In this document: piece after piece, positions 1,400-22,874 of the stretch
Layout of the letters: each line of letters begins with the position of its first letter
Position numbering within the stretch: the stretch's first letter is position 1
IMG/VR virus record: IMGVR_UViG_3300044953_000111
Location: 1 to 22,874 of that record
From: a virus
DNA: 22,874 bases
Reading direction: 5' to 3' (one strand)
Program-made: the position numbers and the translations under genes
The notes under the pieces: model-generated
Databases searched by the model: none
Told to the model about the DNA's origin: nothing
Seen by the model: only the letters and a program-made list of their open reading frames with translations

Positions 1400-1611
1400 T
1401 CGCACTCCGTCATTGAATCACTTGTACAGTTAGTCCAAGTCGTAAGTGTAGCTTGAGCGGCGACATTCCAAATGTCAGCACAGGGCCACAGAAAACCCAT
1501 CGTATTGAGTCCTAATCCAGAGATAGTGTCGTAAGCAGTAAAACCTTGAGAGTTTAGCGCCTGACCTACGACTGTGCAGTTGATTGCGTTGTTAGCCACC
1601 GTGCAACCCAT
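1396..1611 (-). CDS. Small hypothetical protein between glycosyltransferase and adaptor
   Basis: A 71-codon frame from ATG 1609-1611 that I do not recognise. It overlaps the glycosyltransferase end by about 46 bp and the adaptor start by 4 bp (ATGA). The protein has no membrane segment and is unusually rich in Cys (five), Thr and Asn, with 'GLGLNTMGFLWPCADIW' in the middle. Without this frame there would be a gap of about 165 bp in an otherwise gapless operon, and its ATGA junction with the adaptor fits the local pattern, so I keep it. The long upstream overlap and odd composition mean it could instead be spurious or have a later start. Confidence 0.5.
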   Translation of the reverse strand: MGCTVANNAINCTVVGQALNSQGFTAYDTISGLGLNTMGFLWPCADIWNVAAQATLTTWTNCTSDSMTECE

Positions 1612-9468: not shown

Positions 9469-10680
9469 TTATGGGCTGATGTAGTTACGGAGCACCGCGC
9501 AGCTAGCTGGGAACTCATTGAAAAGATTTGCGAACAAACGCAGTCTCACTTCAAAAAGATCACTGCTAGTCTGAACGATAAGCTCAGAACCAGTCTCAGA
9601 TGCCCACTCAAGCTCGCTCAGCACGTACTTGACGATGACACCTTCCGAGAGCATGAACACTCTGCGGGGGCTGTCTTTGTCTGGGCAAACTGGCGAACCG
9701 TTAAATTCCAGATAAGAGTTCTCGGTCTTTGTAAAGCCTCCGTCACCCTTAACCGTATTAACATAACGCTTATCGGCAGCAAGAAGCTTAGTATAGAAGC
9801 GTTCGGTGTCGAAATCAGTCCATAGAACTGAGATCTTACCGTTACCTCTACGACGCGCTTCGTTGTATGCCTGCTGAAGGCCATCCAAAGTCAACTGACC
9901 ACCCGAAAGGTTGACCGAGTTGCCCTGGAAGCTTGGATACAACGACCGATCAACGTTAAACACTGTCGTCGTTCCACCATCAAGCTGAGTCAGGATTCCC
10001 TGAATCTCTTGACCCTGTGAGCCGGAGCGAATCAGGACATCTGTTGACACGACCGTCACTGGAGCGCTAAGCGTCAGCGTTGCAGTGGTTGTGCCAGTCA
10101 GAGCCGTAATCGCTACGCCAGATGCTTTAAGGGTGGCAAATGTTGAGTCATAGATATCTACGACCATACCAACATCAAGGAACTTGTTCCCTGCTTCAAC
10201 TGACTCACGACCAGTCACGGTAATAACCGAGCTAGAAGTCGCGTTAGCTGAAACGGTCGCAAGCGTTCCAGTACCATCCCACGAACACTGGCGGTTAACA
10301 TCGCTCACGAGATCTTTCATACCTTCAGACATCTGAAAGCTGACTTCGCGAACATATGCTCCCTTATCGTTCTTGCTTGCAGCGATCATCTGAGCGCTCA
10401 CACCGAACCTAAGGTAATTACTACGGTTTGCGATCAAGGCTTGTACCGTGGTTTGACGCCCGATAGCAGGAAGGTTGCCCCCCTCTGCAACGGCTCCGAT
10501 CCCAGTATTACGCCGGACTTTGACCGGTCGCACAACCTGGAATCCGCTCCAAGGTTCTTTACCTTTTTCTGCGGCTTTGTAAATAGGACAGCTATCGTTG
10601 AACTGGCTCTTAATCGTACCTGCGTAGAAATTCTTCAGATTGGCCAGCCCGGACGAGACTGTCTGGAATGAATTAGGCAT
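9469..10680 (-). CDS. Major capsid protein (HK97-fold)
   Basis: 403 residues, ATG 10678-10680. The ribosome site is strong (AAGGAG at 10692-10687, 6 nt spacing), as expected for the most abundant virion protein. The N-terminal region includes 'PWSGFQVVRPVKVRRNTGIG', then 'RQTTVQALIANRSNYLRFGV', resembling the N-arm and E-loop region. Residues about 145-220 form a strand-rich insertion (VITVTGRESVEAGNKFLDVG, then 'VVDIYDSTFATLKASGVAIT'), like the inserted beta-barrel of some capsid proteins. The remainder fits the P- and A-domains ('LDGLQQAYNEARRRGNGKIS'), ending 'FNEFPASCAVLRNYISP'. It follows the scaffold gene directly, the standard order. HK97 fold is inferred from these patterns. Confidence 0.88.
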   Translation of the reverse strand: MPNSFQTVSSGLANLKNFYAGTIKSQFNDSCPIYKAAEKGKEPWSGFQVVRPVKVRRNTGIGAVAEGGNLPAIGRQTTVQALIANRSNYLRFGVSAQMIAASKNDKGAYVREVSFQMSEGMKDLVSDVNRQCSWDGTGTLATVSANATSSSVITVTGRESVEAGNKFLDVGMVVDIYDSTFATLKASGVAITALTGTTTATLTLSAPVTVVSTDVLIRSGSQGQEIQGILTQLDGGTTTVFNVDRSLYPSFQGNSVNLSGGQLTLDGLQQAYNEARRRGNGKISVLWTDFDTERFYTKLLAADKRYVNTVKGDGGFTKTENSYLEFNGSPVCPDKDSPRRVFMLSEGVIVKYVLSELEWASETGSELIVQTSSDLFEVRLRLFANLFNEFPASCAVLRNYISP

Positions 10681-10692
10681 TTGTCTCTCCTT

Positions 10693-11517
10693 TTATATAG
10701 CTCCTCGCATAGCTGCTTCTAGCGCCGCGTTGGTAGCTTCCTTAATGGTCTTGTACTGAACTGGTGCCTGACCAGGAATACCACCGCCGCTTGGTGCATC
10801 TTTAGCCACACGATTAGCTTCGGTTTGTTTAGTTACTTGTTCTTTTGTTTTCGCCTGGAACCGTTGAGTCAACTTATCGTTAACCGATTTAAATAGCTGA
10901 TCCCAAACCTGCTCTGTAAGCTTAGTTCCTTTATCGCTGAGCGTCTGAGCGCGGGCCAGGATTAACTCCTGGATGTCCGGGTCTTTTGTCTCAGGATACT
11001 TTTCACCAAGCTTCGCGAACGTAGATTCAATCGTAGCAAGATGGCTCGCCACCTTACTCTCGTAAATCTCCGATTCTATTTGGGCTACTTTATCGGCTAC
11101 CGACCTAAACTCAGGCGGTAATCCCTGCTCACTCTTAGGTTCCTGCTTTTCGTCTAGTCCGTTCGGAAGCGCATACTTAGCGTAGCCGTGAAACGACTTC
11201 GGGTAGAGCTTCTGAAACTCGCCATACAAATGCGGGTTCTCCCTGAGTGTTTTAAGATCATGCTCCAAAGCGTTCCAATATCTGGATTGCTCCTGATACT
11301 GTTTTCGCTCCTCGGCAAGCTCTTGTGTCTTGCGGGTATAGTCTGAATGGGCCATAACGCTGCTTTTAAGCGCTTGGGTTGTCCACTCTTTGCCATCCCA
11401 CTTGAATTTCTCCACAGAGCCGAGATCGAGGATCTCTGGTTGTTCCGTTGGAGTAGAAACTTGTTCTGTTGTTGGTTCGGCTCCCAGTTCTTGGGTTTGA
11501 CCTTCTAGGTTTTCCAA
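10693..11517 (-). CDS. Capsid scaffolding protein
   Basis: 274 residues from a TTG start (11515-11517) that is supported by AAGGAG nine bases upstream. The N-terminal 30 residues are acidic, Gln- and Thr-rich and probably disordered. Then comes 'FKWDGKEWTTQALKSSVMAH' with 'DYTRKTQELAEERKQY', a motif I associate with scaffold or internal head proteins. Residues 60-230 are charged helices with coiled-coil character, and the C-terminus is short, Gly/Ala-rich and ends in a small helix. This acidic, helical composition directly upstream of the major capsid gene is typical for scaffolds that line the procapsid and leave on maturation. No serine-protease motif is seen, so it is not a fused protease. 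Confidence 0.82.
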   Translation of the reverse strand: MENLEGQTQELGAEPTTEQVSTPTEQPEILDLGSVEKFKWDGKEWTTQALKSSVMAHSDYTRKTQELAEERKQYQEQSRYWNALEHDLKTLRENPHLYGEFQKLYPKSFHGYAKYALPNGLDEKQEPKSEQGLPPEFRSVADKVAQIESEIYESKVASHLATIESTFAKLGEKYPETKDPDIQELILARAQTLSDKGTKLTEQVWDQLFKSVNDKLTQRFQAKTKEQVTKQTEANRVAKDAPSGGGIPGQAPVQYKTIKEATNAALEAAMRGAI

Positions 11518-11520
11518 AAT

Positions 11521-11838
11521 TTATCTCTCCTTCATTCCGAATGCTTTAGAAACGCGGCCATACCATCCCATGTCTTTGGCGGTTTCAGGTTGTTTTGCTG
11601 CTTCCTGCATTAACTGTTCTTTGGTGGCCTCTTTGGACTCTTTAGTAGGGGGGGCTAGGTCAGACTTTTTATTTTCTTGTTCTGACTCCATGTCTTCGTC
11701 TTCTTTTTCCATGGACTCACCCATCATTTCGTTTTGTTCATGCATCATTCCCTCTTTGTCGCCTCCGAGGTTGATGATGATATTGAGTCCTTGACGTTTC
11801 TTCATTAACGCTGCCTTCATTGGGTCGCTTGGCATCAT
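11521..11838 (-). CDS. Small Met/Glu/Lys-rich protein between portal and scaffold
   Basis: 105 residues. The start overlaps the portal stop (ATGATG over TGA) and has AAGGAG about 10 nt upstream, so it is a real, coupled gene. The composition is extreme: about a dozen Met and many Glu, Lys and Gln, with runs such as 'MMHEQNEMMGESMEKEDEDM', then 'MQEAAKQPETAKDMGWYGRV'. It is probably disordered or helical, with an ordered C-terminal patch (WYGRVSKAFGM). No family recognised. Its location between portal and scaffold, and its acidic helical character, suggest an assembly role such as an auxiliary scaffold or portal-associated factor, which is inference only. Confidence 0.7.
   Translation of the reverse strand: MMPSDPMKAALMKKRQGLNIIINLGGDKEGMMHEQNEMMGESMEKEDEDMESEQENKKSDLAPPTKESKEATKEQLMQEAAKQPETAKDMGWYGRVSKAFGMKER
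11527..11532 (-). promoter_or_regulatory. Shine-Dalgarno site selecting TTG start of scaffold gene
   Basis: AAGGAG on the minus strand lies nine bases before TTG 11515-11517. No ATG is available nearby in that frame, so the site decides the non-ATG start. It falls inside the last codons of the Met-rich gene. Confidence 0.6.
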
Positions 11839-13856
11839 TGTAATTGTGCTCCTTGCTGTAATTGTTCTGCGGCCGTTTCTTGTTGGGCCATTTGATCAGC
11901 GAGCATCTGGTCTTCAGCCATTTGCTCTTGAACCTGCACTTGCTCCTCTTGAAACTTTAGTGATGGGTCGGCTAGCTCAGATGCTTGTCGGACATGCTCT
12001 TCTCGCACCTGGAAATAGAGATCCTGTATTTCGGGAGCGAGGCGCTCAAATTTGTCTGACTTCCTGAACCGCTCCATCTCCTTGAGAATGAGTGTGTGAT
12101 TGTCAAACTCATCAATATTTGGATATATCCCAGCTTCAATTTGTTCTATTTGTTTCTTGGCCATGTTCGTATCAAGAGCTTGATCCCGCCATACTTGAGC
12201 TACATCGCCAAACTCCAACATGTTAAGAACTTGCTCTCTGGTTTTTGGATCAGCTGGGTCTCCCATGAGGCCAGCCTGAAATAGATTCAAAACCTCTTGC
12301 CTCTTGAGTGTCTTACTACCAGGTAGAGCGGAGCCTTTTATGACGATCACATCTGTGTTGTTTTTAAGATCTGCACCAGTGAATGGTTTAACAGCATACT
12401 CAAGTCCGGATCCACCAACCTTGAGAAGTCTCTCAGTCTGATAAAACTTCTGAGCATATTGAAGAATCAATTTTCCTAACCTGGCATAAGCTTCTTCGTG
12501 ATTGCTAATTTCTAGTCCAATACGAGTGTCATCTTGCTCAGTCAGGAACTGCATCCCAATCGCCGGAATAGAGGATGATGGAAGCTGCCCTCGTGATACT
12601 TGGTTGATTCCTGAAATGTCATCTAGCTGAGCCTGAAGCGCTTCTTCTTCTTTGTAGGCATATGCAGGAATCTGTGGTGTGTCTAATGGCCTAACTTCCG
12701 CAGCATTTGGCACTGGCGTAAAGTGAACCACCTCGCCTGATAAGTCGTTTAGGCCCTCTTTAATCAACTCAGATCCACGAGGGGCAAGATACTTTCCGGC
12801 TAGGAGCTGGTTAACCCATTGAGCACGCTTCTGATAAAGCCTGTTGAATTGATCTTGGATAGGACGAAGATGTGTGATGACTGATTCTGAATAATACTTT
12901 CCAGCGACAACGATGTCGTCAAACTTAACCAGTGGAATATCGCCAACGGGTAGTGGTTTGTCCTCTAAAACAACATCCCCTGCTGTGATAACCATCCTAC
13001 CGAGAGGATATTTTTTAGAGCGCTTCTCGTAGTAAACGTATTCTGTCGCTGAGTTAGTTAGAATGGACTGAGTTCCACTCATTCCTCGGCTTTGTGTATT
13101 GAGAGACTGAATCCTAGCCTCATACTGATTAGAGAGTGAAAAGCTTTGATCTTCTTTTACTTCCTCTCCCTTTTCGCCATACTGCGATTTGAAATAGTCT
13201 AGCTTTCTAATCTTAGCGCATATGAACCAAGTAGATTCTTCAAAGGTTTTTGCTAGTGGATCTTGGAACACCTCAAATGCTGAAATGACATCAATCCCGA
13301 TGTCTCCCTCATAACCAGTCACTTCACCATTCATAGGATCAATCATGGGATTACCTAAAGTGTCATCATACCTGATTCTGAGATATGAGTGACCGCACTG
13401 TTGTGCCCACATGACGGTATCAACTCGTTTTCGCTCTAGGTTTTGCGTATCCCAGACGTAATCTAACACCTGAAGTGAAAGCTCTGCTGCTTCCTTATCT
13501 TCTGGGTCGTTTGAGTTTGGTTTTACATCATATTTTGGTTTGTTTTTAACCAGTCTTGAGCATCGGTTTTGAATCGCTGGGAGGATCTTGTTTACATGGA
13601 TTCTGTTCTTGGCAATTGTCCCGATACTTGCGCCGAGGGTCTCAAAGCGCCTTGTTGATGAGTTGTAGGCGACGTTACTATATCCGAGCAGAGCTGCGAC
13701 GTTCGTTAGCCAGATGGCTTCATTTGCTGTTCTAGCTGTAGATTGACGAGCTTCTAGGGCTTTAGTCTGAACCCAGGCGGCGAGTTTTTTTTCCGCCTGT
13801 TTAGCCGCAAAGTCATCAAACTTATCATTGCCTTCTAGTGCGTCTGATATTTCCAT
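11835..13856 (-). CDS. Portal protein
   Basis: 673 residues, ATG 13854-13856, overlapping the previous stop by one base (TAATG). The protein has the layout of a large (P22-like class) portal: an N-terminal helical clip/wing part with 'AKNRIHVNKILPAIQNRCSR' and 'LVKNKPKYDVKPNSNDPEDK', then 'MWAQQCGHSYLRIRYDD', 'GDIGIDVISAFEVFQDP', a core 'SESVITHLRPIQDQFNRLYQ', and 'QLDDISGINQVSRGQLPSSS' with 'QFLTEQDDTRIGLEISNHEE'. The last 80 residues are a Gln/Glu-rich helix, like the barrel region. Twelve copies would form the DNA channel that receives the terminase motor and carries the adaptor. The family assignment rests on these recurrent portal segments and on context. Confidence 0.9.
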   Translation of the reverse strand: MEISDALEGNDKFDDFAAKQAEKKLAAWVQTKALEARQSTARTANEAIWLTNVAALLGYSNVAYNSSTRRFETLGASIGTIAKNRIHVNKILPAIQNRCSRLVKNKPKYDVKPNSNDPEDKEAAELSLQVLDYVWDTQNLERKRVDTVMWAQQCGHSYLRIRYDDTLGNPMIDPMNGEVTGYEGDIGIDVISAFEVFQDPLAKTFEESTWFICAKIRKLDYFKSQYGEKGEEVKEDQSFSLSNQYEARIQSLNTQSRGMSGTQSILTNSATEYVYYEKRSKKYPLGRMVITAGDVVLEDKPLPVGDIPLVKFDDIVVAGKYYSESVITHLRPIQDQFNRLYQKRAQWVNQLLAGKYLAPRGSELIKEGLNDLSGEVVHFTPVPNAAEVRPLDTPQIPAYAYKEEEALQAQLDDISGINQVSRGQLPSSSIPAIGMQFLTEQDDTRIGLEISNHEEAYARLGKLILQYAQKFYQTERLLKVGGSGLEYAVKPFTGADLKNNTDVIVIKGSALPGSKTLKRQEVLNLFQAGLMGDPADPKTREQVLNMLEFGDVAQVWRDQALDTNMAKKQIEQIEAGIYPNIDEFDNHTLILKEMERFRKSDKFERLAPEIQDLYFQVREEHVRQASELADPSLKFQEEQVQVQEQMAEDQMLADQMAQQETAAEQLQQGAQLQ

Positions 13857-14077
13857 TAGGTCGCTGCGTAGTCAGAAAGAACTCCTAAATCTTCGGTTGA
13901 TTCAGGGGCACTTTCTTTAGCTTCGACCTTTTTGGTCCCCCAATCGGCTTTTTGCCCATACTGATACGAAACAAAATCACGGCTCATGAGCTTGTTCACA
14001 AGCTTTTGCGTCGTGACATAATACATGACTTCTCGGATGATAGTGTAACCGAGAAGTGCGAAAAAAGCAGCGGTCAC
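13856..14077 (-). CDS. Small single-pass membrane protein upstream of portal
   Basis: 73 residues from GTG 14075-14077. The GTG overlaps the preceding stop (TAGTG) and has GGAGG eight bases upstream, which supports this start over any ATG. Residues 2-20 (TAAFFALLGYTIIREVMYY) form one hydrophobic segment. The rest is soluble and charged: 'FVSYQYGQKADWGTKK' and an acidic tail. It could be a membrane-associated accessory of packaging or lysis, but no known lysis motif is visible and I do not recognise the family. Confidence 0.65.
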   Translation of the reverse strand: MTAAFFALLGYTIIREVMYYVTTQKLVNKLMSRDFVSYQYGQKADWGTKKVEAKESAPESTEDLGVLSDYAAT

Positions 14078-14448
14078 TAGAATCCCTCCACTAGCCCTTC
14101 GGATGGACCATATGTTTTACGACCTAGTTGAACCGACATTTCTTCTTTAATTTTATTAAGTTCCCCGTAAGGGTAGACCATGATGTTTTTATAGAAGAAA
14201 TGGGACACCGTCCCTGTGCCTCCTGGGTTATAGAGTTTGATAATCTCTGGTGTGGTTTCTAACTCCGTATCACCTCTAGCTAAGGCTTCAGCAATACGAG
14301 ACTCAAATTCATGTCTGGTCTCTTTAGTTGGATCAATATCAAAGGCTTTTGGATCAGTTTTATGAGCTGGAATCTTTGAGGTGTCCTGGTGCTCTCCAAA
14401 AACAGCAGTAGGGTCAGTTTGTTCAAGTGTCGTCGTATTCATTGGCAT
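14077..14448 (-). CDS. Small hypothetical protein between terminase nuclease half and portal
   Basis: About 124 residues if it starts at ATG 14446-14448 (MPMNTTTLEQ); an ATG two codons later is equally possible, and a longer start at 14523 would overlap the nuclease gene by about 100 bp. The N-terminal third is polar and disordered. The second half has order: 'ETRHEFESRIAEALARGDTE', then 'PEIIKLYNPGGTGTVSHFFY' and 'VYPYGELNKIKEEMSVQLGR'. No family recognised. It is translationally tied to the membrane protein gene that follows. Confidence 0.65.
   Translation of the reverse strand: MPMNTTTLEQTDPTAVFGEHQDTSKIPAHKTDPKAFDIDPTKETRHEFESRIAEALARGDTELETTPEIIKLYNPGGTGTVSHFFYKNIMVYPYGELNKIKEEMSVQLGRKTYGPSEGLVEGF
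14085..14089 (-). promoter_or_regulatory. Shine-Dalgarno site selecting GTG start of small membrane protein
   Basis: GGAGG on the minus strand precedes GTG 14075-14077 by eight bases. It lies inside the end of the upstream gene, and the GTG overlaps that gene's TAG stop. Together they fix a non-ATG start for the 73-residue membrane protein. Confidence 0.6.
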
Positions 14449-15226
14449 TTCTGTTTGATTTAGCGATGAGCTGGTTTCTGTACCAGTCTTCGTATCCTGA
14501 GTCTTGCGGGTTAGGTTGAACATTCTTTGGTTTCTCTTTCTCGGGGTAAAATACGATTTTTTCCATGTACGCTAATGCGTCTAGGAGATCGTCATGTGCC
14601 CCCCGTGGGAATTGGTTGTATTCTATTTCAAAATCTGTCAGACCTTGGGCAATAAGTAAACGATTCCATTCAAATCTAGGGACTAAACCACTGATCCTCA
14701 TTTCCTTAGTTTTATCTGGAGTCGGTTTAATCCCAACGACTGGTAACTCTGGCACATGGCGTCTTCGCTTTTCTTCTTCAATCATGTATAGGAGCGCCTT
14801 TTGATATGCCACATCTTCTATGCCAATGGATTTTGGTTTGAGCTGGCTATAAACGTCAAAGACTAGTTGAACCACTTGGGTCGGGTTGATTTTGAATCGC
14901 TGGGCATGGGTGAGATACCACGTTTCATTTGCATCAACTTGAATAACGCATAATGCTGTGAAGTCAGCGTTAGAAGTCTCTGATAGAGCAGGGTCAATAA
15001 ACGCAAACGTATGAACCTTAGCTGGGAGTTCTTTGAAATACCTAAGCCACTCGGGTTTAAGCTTGCGGTCTTCAAGGGGTATAATTTCATTTTGGTATTG
15101 GTTCGCGAAGTGATAAGAACCTGCCGCCTTCTTGAGTTCAAGTAGCTTTTCGCGACTAAGACGCTCAGGAAATAGAAGCGATCCATCAGCTCGCTCTGCC
15201 TTTTCGTAGACTATTGACCATTTCAT
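14423..15226 (-). CDS. Terminase large subunit, nuclease half (separate gene)
   Basis: About 267 residues from ATG 15224-15226, which overlaps the previous stop as ATGA; a TTG six codons upstream is less likely. It begins in the interdomain linker ('ADGSLLFPERLSREKL', residues 13-28, then 'YHFANQYQNEIIPLEDRKL'), which in intact terminases follows the ATPase domain. Next is an RNase H-fold nuclease: 'FAFIDPALSETSNADFTAL' with D78, 'SIGIEDVAYQKALLY' with E137, and 'QFPRGAHDDLLDALAYMEKI' with D212, D213 and D216. These acidic residues bind the metals that cut the genome at packaging. There is no Walker motif here, and an in-frame stop lies a few codons upstream. The ATPase half is a separate gene at 21573, about 6.3 kb away. 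Confidence 0.9.
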   Translation of the reverse strand: MKWSIVYEKAERADGSLLFPERLSREKLLELKKAAGSYHFANQYQNEIIPLEDRKLKPEWLRYFKELPAKVHTFAFIDPALSETSNADFTALCVIQVDANETWYLTHAQRFKINPTQVVQLVFDVYSQLKPKSIGIEDVAYQKALLYMIEEEKRRRHVPELPVVGIKPTPDKTKEMRISGLVPRFEWNRLLIAQGLTDFEIEYNQFPRGAHDDLLDALAYMEKIVFYPEKEKPKNVQPNPQDSGYEDWYRNQLIAKSNRNANEYDDT

Positions 15227-15636
15227 CCAAAGAAGGTGCTCCAAAGCATCTTAATTGGTGCCCAGTCCTCTTTATGAACGACCCAGATAACGAAGAACAC
15301 ATAGAGGATTAGAGCTAGTTGAAATACGAAATAAACGAACTTAACGAAATAACCAGCCAGGTCATTGAGCTTTCTCATAAAGCTTCCACGAGGAACAATC
15401 GCATTGTCTAATCCAAACTGCGCTATATGAGCCAAGCGAGCCTTCTGCTCTGATATTGTCATAGTTACAAGCTCACCCTTGTCATTGACCTTCCAAAAGT
15501 GAGGCTTGGCTCTGCTAACCTTGCTGAAATCTGGATTTAAGAGAGCGTTTGGGTAACTCTTGATCTGTCTTTTGCTAGGATTCACTATGACGCGTGCGTT
15601 GTTCTTCGTGAACACTACTAGCCGAGTCTTTGGCAT
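15223..15636 (-). CDS. Membrane-anchored small protein
   Basis: 137 residues from ATG 15634-15636. The N-terminal 90 residues are basic and soluble ('TRLVVFTKNNARVIVNPSKR', then 'KPHFWKVNDKGELV'). Residues about 96-120 are one strong membrane segment (YFVKFVYFVFQLALILYVFF). A short tail with 'WAPIKMLWSTFF' follows. Its final bases overlap the start of the terminase nuclease gene (ATGA), so the two are translationally coupled. No known holin or spanin pattern is obvious. A role in lysis, entry or membrane-associated assembly is possible but not shown. Confidence 0.65.
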   Translation of the reverse strand: MPKTRLVVFTKNNARVIVNPSKRQIKSYPNALLNPDFSKVSRAKPHFWKVNDKGELVTMTISEQKARLAHIAQFGLDNAIVPRGSFMRKLNDLAGYFVKFVYFVFQLALILYVFFVIWVVHKEDWAPIKMLWSTFFG

Positions 15637-15772
15637 TTCCTACCTCAATATCCTTAGCAAGAAGATTAATAAACGCTGCCACCTCGCGGTAGGGCCTCGT
15701 CGCTAAATAATTTAGCGTATCTGCTAGGGTCTTTGAATCTATGTTGTACGACTTGGACGGTAGTTCTTGCAT
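15575..15772 (-). CDS. Small helical protein
   Basis: 65 residues from ATG 15770-15772 with AGGAGG six bases upstream, one of the best ribosome sites in the window. The core 'IDSKTLADTLNYLATRPYRE' plus 'VAAFINLLAKDI' is two amphipathic helices, a pattern I associate with small phage proteins of unknown function whose core reads L..L..YL.TRPY.EV. The last 20 residues are polar. It overlaps the following membrane protein gene by 62 bp, which is long for this operon, so the membrane protein could start later. Confidence 0.65.
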   Translation of the reverse strand: MQELPSKSYNIDSKTLADTLNYLATRPYREVAAFINLLAKDIEVGNAKDSASSVHEEQRTRHSES

Positions 15773-15782
15773 TCTTTGCCTC

Positions 15783-16019
15783 CTATGAAGTTGTTACTGG
15801 TGGATCACCTTGAGCTGCTGCCGCTGCTTGTGCTGCTGCTTGCGAAGCCTGCTGAGCTAGGATCTGTTTAATCTTCGCTTTTAGGATTATCCCCACGACT
15901 CTTTTTACATATTGCGTACTAGTTTCGCCACCAATTAAAGGGATTACCGCCTGAAGCGCGGCTAGAAGCGTCGGAACCTCGGCGTCTGGAATTGTTACGT
16001 TTACTGGAATTGTCGCCAT
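15783..16019 (-). CDS. Small hypothetical protein with Ala/Gln-rich tail
   Basis: 78 residues, ATG 16017-16019, with AGGAG about 7 nt upstream. The N-terminus 'ATIPVNVTIPDAEVPTLLAA' resembles the start of the next gene upstream ('ADVTVLVTFKEDEYPDIKSG'), so the two may be paralogues. The C-terminal third is a low-complexity Ala/Gln run (QASQAAAQAAAAAQG) encoded by a gct/tgc-type trinucleotide repeat at about 15815-15850. No function can be assigned. Confidence 0.6.
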   Translation of the reverse strand: MATIPVNVTIPDAEVPTLLAALQAVIPLIGGETSTQYVKRVVGIILKAKIKQILAQQASQAAAQAAAAAQGDPPVTTS

Positions 16020-16027
16020 AAATTCTC

Positions 16028-16303
16028 CTATCCTGAAATCACTGTGCCGTCGGGCAGAGTCGCATCAACGGTCGGAGTTATCTGAACAGATTGAGACTCG
16101 CTTACTAACCGCACTGCCTTTCGTCTTAGGCCGTCTCGCGCAAGCTCTCCTAAAATCACAGGGATTCTAGTTAAAACCCAGTTATCGTCGCTTACCGGAG
16201 TGCCGTCATCTGCCGACGTATTGGGATAGATTTCCAGCATCCCGCTTTTGATATCGGGATACTCGTCTTCTTTAAACGTCACTAGAACAGTTACGTCAGC
16301 CAT
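16028..16303 (-). CDS. Small hypothetical protein, possible paralogue of its neighbour
   Basis: 91 residues; ATG 16301-16303 overlaps the previous stop by one base (TAATG). The N-terminal strand 'VTVLVTFKEDEYPDIKSGM' is like that of the following gene, and a helix 'LTRIPVILGELARDGLRRKA' occupies the same relative place as 'VKRVVGIILKAKIKQIL' there. No catalytic or membrane motif. It sits between the lectin-like protein and the Ala/Gln-rich protein and is probably co-translated with the former. Confidence 0.6.
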   Translation of the reverse strand: MADVTVLVTFKEDEYPDIKSGMLEIYPNTSADDGTPVSDDNWVLTRIPVILGELARDGLRRKAVRLVSESQSVQITPTVDATLPDGTVISG

Positions 16304-17733
16304 TACTCAAAGTATCCGTTAACTCTTACAGTACCCCTGAACACCTCTGTGGCAGTCGCAGTAGCAATAGGCATTTTTAAAAAGATGTGAACAATAGTTC
16401 CCGGCTCTGACACAAGCGGAGTCGTAAACGTAAAGTTTAGGTTCTCTGCCGCCGCTCCCACTGCTGCACCCACTGGAAACGTTTGAATCCCAAGCAATTG
16501 CCTTCTTGGGGCGCGCGCTGCAGCCGTTGCTGAGTCGGTTGTCGTCATGTTTACGTTGGTAGATCCAACCGCGACACCCCATTGCATCACTGTCGCCGTA
16601 GTCGCTACCGCTACAACCGTGTTGATCGTGCTAATGCTGATGTCTGTGATATAAAGCGACCGACCAGCGATCGCTGCCGTTCCAGCAGGGACCGTATAAC
16701 CAAATAGTGCGTAGTCCGTTTCCGCTCCACCCACTGCCAAAAAAGCAAACTGACCGCCGAGCGTGGTGTATCCCGCCGCCGTATTTGAAAGTGTCGCGTT
16801 CGTCGGGCCTGTAATATTAACCGAGTTCGCCGTCTGTCCAGCCGCTGCTCCAGGTGGGGCTGAAATACAATGGAAGCCGTTGCCGACCATCGCCGAACCC
16901 CAATCACGGGTGTTGTTGATGTCTCCGTTTGAAATGTTTACGGCGTTAATCTCTAAGCGCTGAGCCGAACCAACAGCCGCGCTGTTAAAAATCCGTGTGA
17001 GTATTGGAAGCGCATAACACTGGCTCAAAGCGGGAGCCGTGGTTGGACGGTCCGCTGCTGCGTAGAGAACGTCATCAACCCAAAACTCTACACGGTCGTT
17101 ATTCATGACGATAAGAAAATGATAGACCTGGTTTACAGTGATTGTTGGCAACGTCCCTGTTGCTGCGGTTTCCACACCGTTATAGTTAACGATTCCCTGA
17201 AGCACGCCTGAGCTATTGAGTTTGAAATAAACCCCGTCCGTCGGTGTCGTAGTTCCAGACGCTAGACCCAACCCAAGCTCAGCTACGTTGTTGGTCTGCG
17301 GAGCTGTTGAGAATCTAGCCCAAAACTCCACATAAAGCGGATAAGTTCCAAACATCGGAAACGTCTTATAGGTCTGAACCCGCGCTACAGCACCAGAGGC
17401 CACGGAGTTACCGGAGTTCATAACCATATATCCGCCGCTCAGAGCTACTGTCATGGTTGATGTAGTTCCAGCGTAAGTCGAAGTGTTGAAAGTCGTGTGT
17501 GTAAAGTTGTCTTGCCACATGAGCGAATCAACGCCGACGCGCAATCGGTAATCATCTGAGACGTCTAGCGCCCTAGAAAACCTTGCAAGTCCTGAGCTAC
17601 CGTCGTGAACCTCGCCAATCGCTGCGGAATACCCCGCTTGATCAATATCTGTCGGCGTATTCACCTTCAAATTGTTGTTGGCATCAACGCCAGCTAAATC
17701 AGCCGATGAACCTGATTTGATAATTACGCTCAT
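16303..17733 (-). CDS. Tail/adhesin-like protein with LamG (concanavalin-like) domain
   Basis: 476 residues, ATG 17731-17733. The N-terminus 'VIIKSGSSADLAGVDANNNL' is a short beta module frequent at the start of phage structural proteins. Residues about 75-245 read as a jelly-roll, with 'YPLYVEFWARFSTAPQTNNV', 'GVYFKLNSSGVLQGIVNYNG' and 'VYHFLIVMNNDRVEFWVDDV', the pattern of a LamG/concanavalin-like glucanase domain. The C-terminal 220 residues are Ala/Thr/Val-rich strands ending 'VFRGTVRVNGYF'. It is probably a virion surface protein that binds a carbohydrate. Together with the fibre-like gene just before it, it forms the adhesin part of the cassette between the two terminase halves. Confidence 0.72.
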   Translation of the reverse strand: MSVIIKSGSSADLAGVDANNNLKVNTPTDIDQAGYSAAIGEVHDGSSGLARFSRALDVSDDYRLRVGVDSLMWQDNFTHTTFNTSTYAGTTSTMTVALSGGYMVMNSGNSVASGAVARVQTYKTFPMFGTYPLYVEFWARFSTAPQTNNVAELGLGLASGTTTPTDGVYFKLNSSGVLQGIVNYNGVETAATGTLPTITVNQVYHFLIVMNNDRVEFWVDDVLYAAADRPTTAPALSQCYALPILTRIFNSAAVGSAQRLEINAVNISNGDINNTRDWGSAMVGNGFHCISAPPGAAAGQTANSVNITGPTNATLSNTAAGYTTLGGQFAFLAVGGAETDYALFGYTVPAGTAAIAGRSLYITDISISTINTVVAVATTATVMQWGVAVGSTNVNMTTTDSATAAARAPRRQLLGIQTFPVGAAVGAAAENLNFTFTTPLVSEPGTIVHIFLKMPIATATATEVFRGTVRVNGYFE

Positions 17734-17736
17734 TTA

Positions 17737-19851
17737 TTACACCCCAACGCAATGAATAACATATTGCCCAAAGCTACCATTTGGAGCCTTAGTTATAACG
17801 TCAAAACCGACACCTGCACTAATATTTGTAGCATAAGCGACTATTTCCTCAGCCGCATAATCATCCGGGTCATGGTCCGCTGTGGTTACCGCAAAAGGAG
17901 TACAGACAATCTTAGTAGACGCCCCGACCCACGCTGCCGCCACCGTAGTAGTAACTTGATCTGACTCACCGCCGCCAACCGAGCCAAAGTCTACAGTTAC
18001 AGAAACAGCGTTGCCACCAAAGCCCGAGGTTGACACATACGATGTAACGGTCGTGCTCGTAGACCCGACGACTTTAACACCATTGACCCATAGTTGGGCT
18101 TCCAGCGCTCCCGAGTCATAAACCCAATAGGTGTCGCCCTTAACGGTGTCTGACCCTTCAAAAATGATCTTTTTGTCGCTTGCTACCTGTATGTCGTCTT
18201 CAACGTTGATCGCCCAACCAGTAACAGTTGCACCACCTGAAAAAGACGGAAGCGGGTTCACCTTTAAGCCGTACAGTCTGTGAGTGCCACCGGTATGGGT
18301 AAGGCCGCCGTCCTGAATAATGGCCCGAAACCCATAATAGAGCCTTGTGCCCTGCGTGTTTGCCACTAGGGTTCCTGGCTGTGCCTGAATCCCGATCATC
18401 GTAACGGTGCCGGTTGGGTCTACCGTGTGGTTTGACGTAAATAGACTAGAAGCCGATGGCGAGGCTGGTGACCCAGAGTGCGTAGCAGTAAAGTTCAAAC
18501 ACCGCATTGCAGACGTTGATCCGGTATGAACCAGCGTCAATAACATCCCGGTTGACACTGTTGAGTCAGTGAGATTCGCTGAAATAATGCGCACGCTGGA
18601 TGGGGCATCCGTTCCGAGGCCCATTCTTGCTGCCTGAAGGTTTCTCGGCGTTGATCCATCACCGATATAAACAAACCCAGAGCCAGACTCCTGAGGGTTA
18701 ATAATTAAGTTCGTGCTGTACTGGATGGATGCCGCCTCTGCTGACCCAAAAAACAGTTTTCCTGCGTTGTTTAAATATAGTTTCTGCGTAGCCGTAGCGG
18801 TGCCACTTGTGGTTGTAAAAAACCGTATGCCTCCCGGCGTACTCGTGGCTGAATACACCCCGTCGGACTCAAACCGAATCAACGCCCCAGTTCTGTATGA
18901 GGACGTGCCGTCATATCCGCCCGCTCTAATCTGCCCCAGTATGGTCCCACTACCGCTAATACCTGTCGGACTCGAAAGGCTTGCCCCTTCGCTGCGCAGA
19001 AACTCTATTCGCGGAGCTACGCTGGTAGTGGCTGAGGCCATCGGCACAAACAAACCGCCGTTTGTGGCCCCCGTGTTTACGTCTGCGACCTGAGCGCGCG
19101 GGGTATTTGTTACCCCATTTAGCGAGTAAGTTGCCTCACCTTGACCGACGTTTGCGTTGGTCGCTTTAATGCCGGACGAGTCAACGTAAAAGTAGTTTGT
19201 TGTTTCGGCGTTGTCTCTAACCGCAAACAAGACGCCGGTGATTGGTGTAGCGGCATCGCGTATCCGAAGACCCTTATTCGTGTTGTCTACAGTAAAATAT
19301 TCTCCCGTGATAGACGAGGAGTCATAAACTACTTGCCAGTAAGGAAGTAGCGCCGATCCAATATCGTACCAGCTACAGTCGCCGGTTGATGGAAGACTTC
19401 GCAAAACAAACGGCCCTGGCGTTCCACCCGCTGGCCTGTCCTTGGGCATTTGATAAGACGTAGCGCCTGTATTGTGCTGAACAACTCCTGTGCCGTTACC
19501 GTCAATAATTAGGTTAGCGTTGCTTGTGGTCGGCGTGATTCGTCCGGTGGTATCGTCTATTTGGACGGCTGAGTTCTGAATTAATTTTCCGGTTGTTCCG
19601 TCAAATCTTACAATCGCGTTGTCGGTGCTAGACGCTGGGCCTACGACATCTCCAGCTACAGCTCCGTTCCATACTAGATCAATCGTATCCGTGGTCGAAT
19701 TTCCGGTGATAGTAATAGAACTATCTGAGCTGGTGAGAATAAGTGTATCGGTTGGTGAGTCAGCCGCTGGAGTTGTGCCGAGATCCGGCTGAATAAACGC
19801 AAAGCTGTTGACGTTACTTGCTGAAGGTCCGGTGATCCATAAACGCGGCAC
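17737..19851 (-). CDS. Tail-fibre-like structural protein
   Basis: 704 residues from GTG 19849-19851, immediately after the stop of the last tandem gene. The N-terminal region contains 'GDVVGPASSTDNAIVRFDGT' (about 67-86), a segment recurring in phage tail fibres, followed by strand-rich, Thr/Ser/Gly-rich repeats ('ASIQYSTNLIINPQESGSGF'), consistent with a trimeric fibre. The last 110 residues form a separate beta-sandwich containing 'TADHDPDDYAAEEIVAYATN' (from about 657) and ending 'GFDVITKAPNGSFGQYVIHC'; this looks like the C-terminal module of many phage structural proteins. No intramolecular chaperone or lyase motif is visible. Probably a receptor-binding fibre, inferred from composition and motifs. 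Confidence 0.75.
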   Translation of the reverse strand: MPRLWITGPSASNVNSFAFIQPDLGTTPAADSPTDTLILTSSDSSITITGNSTTDTIDLVWNGAVAGDVVGPASSTDNAIVRFDGTTGKLIQNSAVQIDDTTGRITPTTSNANLIIDGNGTGVVQHNTGATSYQMPKDRPAGGTPGPFVLRSLPSTGDCSWYDIGSALLPYWQVVYDSSSITGEYFTVDNTNKGLRIRDAATPITGVLFAVRDNAETTNYFYVDSSGIKATNANVGQGEATYSLNGVTNTPRAQVADVNTGATNGGLFVPMASATTSVAPRIEFLRSEGASLSSPTGISGSGTILGQIRAGGYDGTSSYRTGALIRFESDGVYSATSTPGGIRFFTTTSGTATATQKLYLNNAGKLFFGSAEAASIQYSTNLIINPQESGSGFVYIGDGSTPRNLQAARMGLGTDAPSSVRIISANLTDSTVSTGMLLTLVHTGSTSAMRCLNFTATHSGSPASPSASSLFTSNHTVDPTGTVTMIGIQAQPGTLVANTQGTRLYYGFRAIIQDGGLTHTGGTHRLYGLKVNPLPSFSGGATVTGWAINVEDDIQVASDKKIIFEGSDTVKGDTYWVYDSGALEAQLWVNGVKVVGSTSTTVTSYVSTSGFGGNAVSVTVDFGSVGGGESDQVTTTVAAAWVGASTKIVCTPFAVTTADHDPDDYAAEEIVAYATNISAGVGFDVITKAPNGSFGQYVIHCVGV

Positions 19852-20145
19852 TTAGGTACCTGCCGATCTACCTCTTAGCGCCATGACGGTTGCCGTTGAG
19901 CCAGTCGCTGCGAAGTAAACAGTTGTAGAGTTATCAATCTGCACAGCCTCACTCGTACCGTAAAGATACCCAAGCCCCCAGGGAATAGGTGTTGATCCTG
20001 TTACTATCTCCAAGGAACCACCTGAAAAGTACTTGAACACAGAGGCATTGAGACCAGCCACCACAGTGACGCCAATAATAGTAGACAAGCCAACGCTAAA
20101 GCGAAATCCTTCCAGTCCATGAATGTCTCGCCGGTCTTGACTCAT
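19852..20145 (-). CDS. Small tandem paralogue C (beta-rich structural protein)
   Basis: 97 residues, ATG 20143-20145 overlapping the previous stop as ATGA. It is the third and most divergent of three consecutive genes with the same pattern: (K/R)Y..G.(S/T)LE near the middle ('FKYFSGGSLEIVTG'), a G(Y/F) turn, and Y..ATG.T near the end ('VYFAATGSTATVMALRG'). No enzyme motif or membrane segment. It lies immediately before the fibre-like gene, so the set could form a fibre base or a virion surface protein. Function unknown. Confidence 0.7.
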   Translation of the reverse strand: MSQDRRDIHGLEGFRFSVGLSTIIGVTVVAGLNASVFKYFSGGSLEIVTGSTPIPWGLGYLYGTSEAVQIDNSTTVYFAATGSTATVMALRGRSAGT

Positions 20146-20453
20146 CCACCACTTCCAGGGTTTCCTTCAGAAAACACGCGCAAAAAAGACCATGTGCAAG
20201 TCGTTGTTCCGGTCGCTGTATAGTAAAGGTCTCCGATGATTGGAATTGGGGTGTAGTGAACAGCCCCACCCATCACGAATCCATTACCTGGGGTAAGACT
20301 CGGGCCACCAAACTCAAGAGAGCATCCAGCGATGTATCGCACGAGAAATCCCATCTGTCCGGCCACACACTGAACCACTCCGCTCGCGCCACCGGCGGTA
20401 ACTAGCACCGAGCCGTTAAACGCTCCAACCTTATCAAGCCAATTGAGATACAT
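20142..20453 (-). CDS. Small tandem paralogue B (beta-rich structural protein)
   Basis: 103 residues; ATG 20451-20453 overlaps the stop of paralogue A by one base (TAATG). The middle is 'FLVRYIAGCSLEFGGPSLTP' and the end 'LYYTATGTTTCTWSFLR', aligning by eye with its two neighbours. It ends 'GNPGSGG', like the 'NPGSLG' end of paralogue A, so these two are closer to each other than to C. Strand-rich, no signal peptide. Unknown function. Confidence 0.72.
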   Translation of the reverse strand: MYLNWLDKVGAFNGSVLVTAGGASGVVQCVAGQMGFLVRYIAGCSLEFGGPSLTPGNGFVMGGAVHYTPIPIIGDLYYTATGTTTCTWSFLRVFSEGNPGSGG

Positions 20454-20761
20454 TAGCCTAAGCTCCCTGGATTCTGTGGTCCTACCAATCTAAATCCGGT
20501 AACTGTGCTAGTTGCTCCTGTTGCGATCATGTAAACATCACCAGTGCATGGGAAAAACACCGGGTAAGCGTTGGTGTTTGCACTTAAAATATACCCCGCC
20601 CCAGAAGTGAGTGATGCCCCTCCGACCTCAAGGGTTGATCCAGCTAGGTATCGGAACATGATTCCGATTTGTCCTGGGAGTGCTGTGAATCGCTGAGCAC
20701 CGCCGGTTTGAACGGATGTAGTAAACGCCGAGATTGTTTGTCCTAGTAACTCACGAGCCAT
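20453..20761 (-). CDS. Small tandem paralogue A (beta-rich structural protein)
   Basis: 102 residues, taking ATG 20759-20761 (MARELLGQTISAFTTSV) as the start; the longer open frame to 20923 would lie inside the methyltransferase gene. It overlaps that gene's stop by 11 bp. Key segments are 'FRYLAGSTLEVGGASLTSGA' and 'VYMIATGATSTVTGFRLVG'. These match paralogues B and C in order and spacing. No catalytic motif. It opens the run of three related genes ahead of the fibre-like gene. Confidence 0.72.
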   Translation of the reverse strand: MARELLGQTISAFTTSVQTGGAQRFTALPGQIGIMFRYLAGSTLEVGGASLTSGAGYILSANTNAYPVFFPCTGDVYMIATGATSTVTGFRLVGPQNPGSLG

Positions 20762-21569
20762 TTGTTTTGAACCCCACTTGTGAGCCGTTAGGTAGCTCAC
20801 CCCGCATATGTTGAATAAAGTTATCGTACCAACGCCAATCGTACTCCGGAAAGAGGTTTCTAACAACGCCTTGAAACTCATGAGGCGTATACATCCGGAG
20901 GTGCCCTCCGCCCCCTGCCTCACCCTTCCATCCCCTTGGTGGCTCGCCGTTGTGCGGCGTGTATTTTGGTGTGCTGACGTGAATGATTTTAGGTTTAACG
21001 TCTAGCTTAACTAGGTTTTGCCGGATCTCGTCTACGTTCCAGAGGTGTTCAATAATTTCGCAAGAGATATACATGATCGGGTTTGAATCAAACGCTTCAA
21101 CCATCATGTCACCAAGGATGTCTTTAGCTTTAGCTCTAGCTGTATCGTGAACACCAAGGGCTTTGTACTTAAACTGACATTTGTTTTCTTTAAGGCCAAT
21201 AGGGAGCCAATACTCGCCCGGTCCGAACTCTAAGAGGTTAGGTGTAATTCCTTGAGAATTAAACTTTTGAACGTCCGCAAGGATGAGCTTTGCTCGTAGG
21301 TTATGAAACATCCAGACGGACTTAGAGACCGAGACGTCTTGGTCTAATGGGTTTGTTGAGTAATCCTCTAAATTTTGAGCATATTGGAGAACTTTATCCC
21401 GAGCTGCGATGATGGCTGGTGGTGGGTTGTCTCGGTAATAGGCGGGCAACATTTCGCCGAGGATCTTCATAGCACGTTCTATTTCGTCGGCTCTAACGAG
21501 GCAGTCAGCTACGTCTAGGTATGATTTTTCCCATTCGGGCCAGTTCTTTAGTTCGCCGTCATTTAGCAT
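20751..21569 (-). CDS. Class I SAM-dependent methyltransferase
   Basis: 272 residues; ATG 21567-21569 lies three bases after the terminase ATPase-half stop and has TAGGAG about 9 nt upstream. Residues 1-70 are helical. The Rossmann-like part starts at about 110, with motif I as 'NLLEFGPGEYWLPIG' (E114-F-G-P-G). 'MYISCEIIEHLWNVDE' (about 166-181) matches the motif with EVIEHL in methyltransferases of the 11/23 type. 'GGGGHLRMYTPHEF' (219-232) is the loop often seen in enzymes that methylate sugars or small molecules. The substrate is unknown. As the first gene of the cassette, and with a glycosyltransferase elsewhere in the operon, it may modify a glycan on the virion (inference). It lacks the DPPY/NPPY motif of adenine-specific DNA methylases. 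Confidence 0.8.
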   Translation of the reverse strand: MLNDGELKNWPEWEKSYLDVADCLVRADEIERAMKILGEMLPAYYRDNPPPAIIAARDKVLQYAQNLEDYSTNPLDQDVSVSKSVWMFHNLRAKLILADVQKFNSQGITPNLLEFGPGEYWLPIGLKENKCQFKYKALGVHDTARAKAKDILGDMMVEAFDSNPIMYISCEIIEHLWNVDEIRQNLVKLDVKPKIIHVSTPKYTPHNGEPPRGWKGEAGGGGHLRMYTPHEFQGVVRNLFPEYDWRWYDNFIQHMRGELPNGSQVGFKTNGS

Positions 21570-21572
21570 TGG

Positions 21573-22403
21573 TTAGTCTCCTACTGTTTTACCTGAGTAT
21601 TTCCAGAGTTCGCCTTGATCTATTTCAAGCTCATGCTGGCTTACCATCCCGATCACGTCGTCTGCGCTATAGCGGGTACCGACAAGGACCAGGATTCCGT
21701 CAGGTTCTAAAATGGATAGCGCCATTCGGTAGTGATTCCAAACCTTTTCTCTTTGGTCCTGATTGGCTGAGTTTTTGTCCGAGTTCAAATCGTCATGGAC
21801 ATAGCAATCATAGTGCTGCCCGACGCGGGCCGTTGAAATGGCTGACGCGCTTAGACTAGGCTCTTTTAACTTTTTTGTCCTAGTTGAGAGGGTAAGTTCT
21901 GATTGAGTCCAGTTGTCTGATCCTATTCGGTCACCGAAGATGAGGCGGAACTTCTCTGACTCATAGTGTGATTTTATCTGAGAAATAAACTTCTTAGAAT
22001 TTGAGTAGACCTCAGAGTTGATACAGATTCTCAGGTTGGGGTTATGCTCTAGGAGCCACATAGGGTAACTTATACAAGCGATTGAGCTTTTGAAGGTCCC
22101 CCTAGGCATGACGATGAGTTTTCGCTTTGTAGGGGCTTCCAAGGCCCTAATCATGCGGCCGTGAGCGTGAGGCACGACATCCCGATAATCTAAGACGTAT
22201 TTCGCAAAGCGGTATAGCGATTCTTTATAGTGCTCTGAGGCAAAGCTTTTGACGGCCTGATACTCAAGTTTTGCTGCGCTCTTTAGTGAGGATCGATAGG
22301 ATCTCCTTAATATCTCCTCGGAGTTCCCTGTTTTCTTCTTTGAGTTCTCGGATGACTGACTCAAAGGCGGCGTTTGTGACGTAGGTTTCTCTGGTTCTAT
22401 CAA
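21573..22403 (-). CDS. Terminase large subunit, ATPase half (separate gene)
   Basis: Up to 276 residues, counted from TTG 22401-22403. It holds the complete packaging ATPase: an adenine-site region 'YRFAKYVLDYRDVVPHAHGR', Walker A-like 'MPRGTFKSS' (99-107, an F in place of the usual loop Gly but with R101 and K105), Walker B 'YDCYVHDDLN' (D204, D205), and the coupling motif 'VGTRYSADDV' (GTR at 242-244). It then ends at 'ELWKYSGKTVGD', where intact terminases continue into the linker and nuclease; those parts are at 14423-15226. The start is uncertain: the TTG has no ribosome site and lies deep inside the 86-residue gene, and no ATG or GTG occurs before the adenine-site region. The motor ATPase should still dock on the portal. 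Confidence 0.88.
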   Translation of the reverse strand: MIEPEKPTSQTPPLSQSSENSKKKTGNSEEILRRSYRSSLKSAAKLEYQAVKSFASEHYKESLYRFAKYVLDYRDVVPHAHGRMIRALEAPTKRKLIVMPRGTFKSSIACISYPMWLLEHNPNLRICINSEVYSNSKKFISQIKSHYESEKFRLIFGDRIGSDNWTQSELTLSTRTKKLKEPSLSASAISTARVGQHYDCYVHDDLNSDKNSANQDQREKVWNHYRMALSILEPDGILVLVGTRYSADDVIGMVSQHELEIDQGELWKYSGKTVGD

Positions 22404-22524
22404 GGGTAGCGTCTAGTTGGTCAACTTGCTTTTCTAACCTGGTTACTTTTGTTTGTACGGCTCCGAATGTCACGGCGAAAGTTAATATAGCGGCTATGAT
22501 TTCTCTAATCAGATCGTCCGTCAT
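22264..22524 (-). CDS. Small membrane/coiled-coil protein between terminase genes
   Basis: 86 residues, ATG 22522-22524, with AAGGA about 8 nt upstream. Residues 8-25 are one hydrophobic segment (EIIAAILTFAVTFGAVQ), followed by a long charged helix with hydrophobic heptad positions ('VTRLEKQVDQLDATLDRTRE', then 'FESVIRELKEENRELRGDIK'). This gives an N-terminal membrane anchor plus coiled coil. It overlaps the terminase small subunit by 20 bp and the ATPase-half frame by up to 140 bp. Such proteins near lysis genes can be holin or spanin partners, but here the neighbours are packaging genes, so the role is open. Confidence 0.68.
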   Translation of the reverse strand: MTDDLIREIIAAILTFAVTFGAVQTKVTRLEKQVDQLDATLDRTRETYVTNAAFESVIRELKEENRELRGDIKEILSILTKERSKT

Positions 22525-22874
22525 CTAGGTCATCCTTGAGCGACTGTTTGAGGTCCTGCTTGATAGCTTCAATAGCCTTCTCCTCATCATCGCTTAGGGT
22601 GACCTTTTGTTCAACTTTGTCCCATTGATCTAGCCAGTGTTTCCCGAGCCAGATAAGCATTGCGGGGTTTCCTTTTGAAGCAGCAGCAAATTGTAGTCGT
22701 CTTAACGAGACCTTGCCAGTTGACCGCTTTTGTCTGCTGTACTCCGCGAAATTCATCCCGGTGCGTCGTTTGCACTCACTCTCTATGGTATCAACGGAGA
22801 CGCTAGCGAGATCGGCGCATTCAACTTCTGTGGCATGAACGAACAGAGCGCCTTCAATTTTTGTCCAGAGTGTA
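22505..22874 (-). CDS. Terminase small subunit, C-terminal part (runs off right edge)
   Basis: The frame stays open upstream of ATG 22756 to the right edge. Hand translation adds a helix-turn-helix segment: 'GALFVHATEVECADLASVSV', then 'DTIESECKRRTGMNFAEYSR'. It continues 'QKRSTGKVSLRRLQFAAASK' and 'GNPAMLIWLGKHWLDQWDK', then an acidic C-terminal tail. A DNA-binding HTH followed by '(K/R)..LR..QF..A.KGN.AM.IWLGK..L.Q.DK' is a characteristic small-terminase pattern. It would recognise the packaging site and recruit the motor. The N-terminus is missing from this window. The next gene's start lies within its last codons. Confidence 0.85.
   Translation of the reverse strand, partial: TLWTKIEGALFVHATEVECADLASVSVDTIESECKRRTGMNFAEYSRQKRSTGKVSLRRLQFAAASKGNPAMLIWLGKHWLDQWDKVEQKVTLSDDEEKAIEAIKQDLKQSLKDDLDDGRSD

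Follow-up and report, generated by a model that had tools for sequence, protein, structure and literature searches.

In the window analysed here, a stretch of viral DNA of 22,874 nucleotides (nt) (IMG/VR record IMGVR_UViG_3300044953_000111, positions 1 to 22,874), the large terminase subunit (TerL) is encoded by two separate genes, whereas in other tailed phages TerL is normally one polypeptide with an ATPase core, a lid and a nuclease. The same division was found in a clade of uncultured tailed phages with genomes of about 35–40 kb. Both genes are open, conserved and selected, with a clean common break and a single origin, and neither an intron nor, at the break, an intein was found. Most probably, they result from an ancient fission of the large-terminase gene that became fixed in this one clade, and their products would meet non-covalently as a two-chain TerL. 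The two genes are:

21573..22403, minus strand: TerL ATPase-core gene, first half of the split (PHROG 38, predicted structure)
14423..15226, minus strand: TerL lid-plus-nuclease gene, second half of the split (PHROG 38, Terminase_6C, predicted structure)

The upstream gene encodes 276 amino acids from a TTG start. This start is uncertain, as TTG is the only candidate codon ahead of the conserved part and as an open reading frame (ORF) of 86 amino acids overlaps the start (22264-22524, minus strand, with a weak Rz-like spanin match). The downstream gene encodes 267 amino acids beginning with MKWSIVYE. Its ORF can also be read as 14423-15244; the ATG at 15226 is the most likely true start and overlaps the stop of the preceding gene as ATGA. 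A first-pass annotation of the window, made by a model from the letters and their ORFs, had placed both genes correctly, and its count of ten genes between them agrees with the ten ORFs in the 6,346 nt of spacing. The motifs it had named were also present, namely the P-loop PRGTFKSS (R101, K105), Walker B D204-D205 and GTR 242-244 in the ATPase half, and the acidic residues D78, E137, D213, and D216 in the nuclease half (numbered from MKW; ORF numbers are six higher).

The profile comparison that the annotation had proposed aligned the ATPase half to positions 266-463 of PHROG 38 (terminase large subunit; E 3e-36) and the nuclease half to positions 468-714 (E 1.1e-47), two stretches that are adjacent and do not overlap. 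The nuclease half additionally matched Pfam Terminase_6C above the cut-off. Of the hallmarks of TerL, the upstream gene has the ASCE ATPase core (Walker A and B, coupling motif) and the downstream gene the RNase H-like nuclease and its catalytic acidic residues, and portal, scaffold and capsid genes adjoin them; the union of both domains in one polypeptide is missing, with two genes in 55 loci. A second complete terL, which the annotation had named as evidence that would overturn the split, was found neither in the 22.9-kb record, where each half matched itself alone, nor in relatives of 34–41 kb. Among these, 18 virus records of 34.4–40.8 kb have a single place for each of the two halves.

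Related phages, where a search for the same split had been suggested, share the break. A second IMG/VR contig (L003) differs from the window at one position over a matching stretch of 13.2 kb (99.99% identical) and has the same layout; it may stem from a related sample, and the clade of relatives is the stronger evidence against misassembly. The contigs L006 and L017, with 45–51% identity, likewise encode the halves separately, and one or two small genes lie in the gap. Profile searches of viral contigs gave 55 distinct non-redundant loci with both halves, mostly 40–60% identical. The queries were of half length and fused proteins were also recovered (L041, L042, L068, L141, L144, and others), so fused genes were detectable. 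In all 55 loci the ATPase half comes first and both halves lie on the same strand, with a gap of 224 to 6,328 nt (median 1,535), and the portal gene follows the nuclease half by 0.4–1.4 kb in 51 loci. The nuclease-half ATG overlaps the preceding stop in 23 of the 55. Shine-Dalgarno-like motifs were found at few loci (13/55 for ATPase starts and 10/55 for nuclease starts, vs. a background of 12%), a number too low to be informative. In one record (G017), the halves lie near opposite contig ends, as expected of a circularly permuted assembly.

In a tree of the concatenated alignment, the 49 full pairs form one clade (Shimodaira–Hasegawa-like approximate likelihood ratio test 98), next to one-gene TerLs, and the state changes once; the tree is a quick build without bootstraps, and distant outgroups were dropped because of long branches. 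In the one-gene relative L068, the model of the N-terminal half ends at residue 233 and that of the C-terminal half begins at 234; the fission thus removed and duplicated nothing. The residues R101, G102, K105, D204, D205, T243, and R244 of the ATPase half and D78, E137, D213, and D216 of the nuclease half are invariant in all 49 pairs, and the glycine of GTR is kept in 47. For the close pair L107/L108, the ratio of nonsynonymous to synonymous substitutions (dN/dS) was 0.059 for the ATPase half and 0.019 for the nuclease half; synonymous sites were saturated in other pairs. Both halves are intact and under selection, as the annotation had supposed from their appearance.

The position of the cut was derived from AlphaFold2 models. 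The model of the ATPase half (predicted local distance difference test (pLDDT) 85) matches PhiV-1 TerL 7-247 (Z 22.1) and T4 gp17 103-312 (Z 17.1). In the nuclease-half model (pLDDT 82.5), residues 55-229 match TerL nuclease domains with Z 13–15.5 (D6E 237-415, T4 gp17 363-561), and the match begins at residue 55. We take the limits of the T4 gp17 lid to be 314-360. The D6E core was aligned to the ATPase half up to about residue 189, and the lid of D6E TerL precedes an ordered linker at 230-241 (PMC5727402), from which residues 1-54 of the second half would be lid plus linker. In these models, the ATPase domain itself is cut, with the core on one side and the lid on the other, and the second protein starts with the lid. 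The first-pass annotation had put the break at the interdomain linker of ATPase and nuclease; this was wrong, as the downstream protein has the lid (1-54) ahead of the nuclease (55-229). Residues 1-54, modelled in isolation, reached a confidence of about 50–79, below that of the nuclease domain, which is weak evidence for a segment that may pack on the other chain. The lid residues G36, Q43, Y44, and N46 are among those conserved in the second protein and support a kept function.

We infer that the two polypeptides work as one packaging motor. The first gene would supply the ASCE ATPase core with Walker A, Walker B and GTR, and the second the ATPase lid, the linker and the RNase H-like nuclease. 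The proteins would associate non-covalently, restoring the core–lid contact, and the two-chain TerL would dock on the portal. One chain would hydrolyse ATP and thereby move the lid on its partner; the lid-bearing chain would also bring in the nuclease. In models of D6E and T4, lid movement is driven by the P-loop arginine, which is in contact with the lid (PMC5727402); with the cut between core and lid, this contact would here cross two proteins. The gap between the genes may then have become a site of gain and loss for structural and host-surface genes (a 103-amino-acid family, fibres, and glycosyltransferases). A tentative extension, which we regard as possible but rather doubtful, is a two-component motor with ATP binding and hydrolysis on one polypeptide, force transmission by the lid on another, and the ATPase domain completed in trans; on the ATPase ring, lid–nuclease chains would exchange or change number during initiation, translocation, and cutting.

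Two points weigh against a two-chain TerL. The records come from metagenomes throughout, and IMG/VR lists none of them as a complete genome. Moreover, the distances of the two halves correlate with r 0.525, compared to 0.495 and 0.55 for each half with the portal; in this distance-matrix comparison, there is no coevolution signal between the halves beyond shared descent.

The core and the lid–nuclease protein could instead be separate machines, with the core translocating alone and the second protein recruited for cutting only, which we consider unlikely. The phi29 packaging ATPase has no active nuclease, and an ATPase-only motor is therefore possible in principle. However, the cut strips the core of the lid, the part that touches the P-loop arginine and passes on hydrolysis in the D6E and T4 models (PMC5727402), and the conserved lid residues of the second protein (G36, Q43, Y44, and N46 among others) argue for continuing contact.

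A self-splicing intron, in cis or in trans, would make the halves exons that are joined in RNA. The TerL genes of Jug phages are split by group I introns in this way, and splicing was seen in metatranscriptomes (PMC12363816). For the present clade, this explanation is very improbable. An Rfam scan with gathering thresholds of 15 sources (the window and 14 relatives) gave no intron and just a tRNA, several gaps, at 224–478 nt, are hardly long enough to hold one, and in L017 a single ORF fills the whole 296-nt gap. Likewise, the nuclease-half ATG overlaps the upstream stop in the window and in the 23 relatives mentioned above, and the tails of the ATPase halves past the break differ in length and sequence. 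Trans-splicing by an undescribed ribozyme is a formal possibility.

One chain could also arise via a split intein or ribosomal bypass, to which we assign a negligible probability. Inteins do occur in the clade, inside each half (L183, L138), but the second half begins directly at MKW, the first half ends 0–30 residues past the break, and no N- or C-intein pieces were found in the junction sequences of 15 loci. To our knowledge, bypass of 0.2–6.3 kb of translated genes is without precedent. The view of the first-pass annotation, which had seen no intein or intron-encoded endonuclease at either junction, is supported in that neither an intron nor an intein explains the split. The intein-like insert of L183 (8753-10525) interrupts Walker A of the ATPase half, the nuclease half being a separate gene; that of L138 (1673-3400) follows HDD in the active site of the nuclease half. 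Decay and misassembly of terL, common causes of split genes in metagenomes and both raised by the annotation as threats to its reading, are next to impossible in view of the layout of L003, 55 loci with the same break, a conserved clade with invariant catalytic residues, low dN/dS, and single copies.

The divided terL gene can be compared to several known systems. TerL of the Autographiviridae type (T7 gp19/PhiV-1) is the closest solved one in sequence and structure, with the same motifs and domain order. By sequence, the ATPase half is closest to 8dgc_E and 4bij, and 8dgc_E matches in structure with Z 22.1 (core) and Z 15.2 (nuclease). T7 gp19 and PhiV-1 TerL are, however, one polypeptide, whereas the TerL of the window is cut between core and lid into two genes. 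In herpesviruses (UL15/UL89), the conserved TerL coding sequence is interrupted by gene sets that vary between lineages, and mRNA splicing joins two exons (PMC3079670). The window resembles them in that its TerL is interrupted by other genes, the set of which varies between lineages; unlike the spliced exons, both halves have a start and a stop codon of their own, and an intron was not found. The terL of Jug phages consists of two or three fragments, with group I introns that contain homing-type genes, and spliced RNA was detected (PMC12363816). The window shares the fragmentation, but not such introns.

The circular metagenomic podovirus genome ctLwi270 in GenBank (MW202554, L058) carries two 'terminase large subunit' genes (13006-15543), and its capsid protein is the best match of the window among phage records. 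As in the window, TerL is divided into two ORFs, with an ORF of 62 amino acids between them. The first contains the core with a lid-like stretch and, in addition, an intein-like insert; the second contains the nuclease domain alone, which places the break at the true interdomain linker and suggests a second, independent fission. PHROG 4758 (243 amino acids, ATPase only) and 5573 (250 amino acids, nuclease only) closely match the extents of the two halves. As they score below PHROG 38, these families are probably not from this clade, and they hint at further cases of split TerL. No paper on a stable two-polypeptide TerL lineage was found in the literature covered, subscription papers being outside this coverage.

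Isolated phages were also inspected for the split. The best matches among those inspected all have a one-gene TerL (ANMV-1, phiA008, Helicobacter prophages, ICP2, A-4L, BSTP12, ctsTn925, MedPE-SWcel-C56, tant8-1, NVP1208B, Lbo-JY12, LE3, and RHph_Y52). Casserole, Shocker, DS1, and ctEqG8, the nearest by portal and capsid, have a one-gene TerL that is too distant for either half model. Portal and capsid of the window are nearest to those of Jasminevirus-type actinophages (22–30% identity), the TerL of which is of another lineage; packaging and capsid modules therefore differ in history.

Packaging models hinge on the way in which the core moves the lid and the nuclease is kept quiet during translocation. 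With a natural cut between core and lid, the two parts could be titrated separately to ask which contacts are needed. Such genomes will be overlooked or wrongly scored when phages are classified by TerL or filtered by length. Furthermore, the terL locus serves as an insertion place for structural genes.

The 103-amino-acid family was found between the halves in 46 of the 55 loci and essentially nowhere else on them. It has three copies in the window (19852-20773, minus strand) and no match in Pfam, PHROGs, or phage records; it may comprise decoration proteins or partners of the two-gene enzyme. Further genes between the halves include those for a glycosyltransferase family, with a Pfam match in L055, for a fibre-like protein, and for families of 268 and 137 amino acids. 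Insertion of such a gene either caused the fission or came after it. The remaining features of the window, with amino acids abbreviated as aa and hidden Markov model as HMM, are:

22505..22873, minus strand: candidate small terminase, cut by the record end (position alone; no PHROG match)
20751..21569, minus strand: 272-aa gene, methyltransferase-like by eye alone (ORF; no PHROG or Pfam match)
20453..20773, minus strand: 103-aa family, copy 1, with a longer reading of 20453-20923 (family HMM E 1e-14; no PHROG match)
20142..20453, minus strand: 103-aa family, copy 2 (family HMM E 2e-12; no match in Pfam or phage records)
19852..20145, minus strand: 103-aa family, copy 3 (family HMM E 9e-26)
17737..19851, minus strand: 704-aa putative fibre or structural protein (composition and neighbourhood; no PHROG or Pfam match)
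16303..17733, minus strand: 476-aa putative fibre protein (weak Laminin_G_3, lectin-like match below the cut-off)
16028..16303, minus strand: 91-aa gene between the halves, no assigned function (ORF)
15783..16019, minus strand: 78-aa gene between the halves, no assigned function (ORF)
15575..15772, minus strand: 65-aa gene between the halves, no assigned function (ORF)
15223..15636, minus strand: 137-aa gene directly upstream of the nuclease half, its stop overlapping the nuclease start (ORF)
11835..13856, minus strand: portal protein, downstream of the nuclease half (PHROG 156 E 1e-45, Pfam P22_portal)
10693..11517, minus strand: scaffolding protein (PHROG 3927 E 1e-8)
9469..10680, minus strand: major capsid protein (PHROG 14242 E 9e-44)

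The 272-aa gene starts 3 nt past the stop of the ATPase half, and its relatives lie between the halves in other contigs. A gene of the 137-aa type also lies ahead of the nuclease half in further loci such as L031.

One split-TerL contig (L067) was binned in a metagenome-assembled genome (MAG) of Candidatus Nitrosotalea. Among 200 genomes searched from the phylum of this MAG, a match was found in the MAG itself alone. The assignment is probably bin contamination, and an archaeal host may be considered. In the structural gene region of the window, a 727-aa glycosyltransferase fusion (PHROG 13126 and 2170) is encoded at 1566-3749 on the minus strand, a relative of which is found in L006 at 17018-18760.

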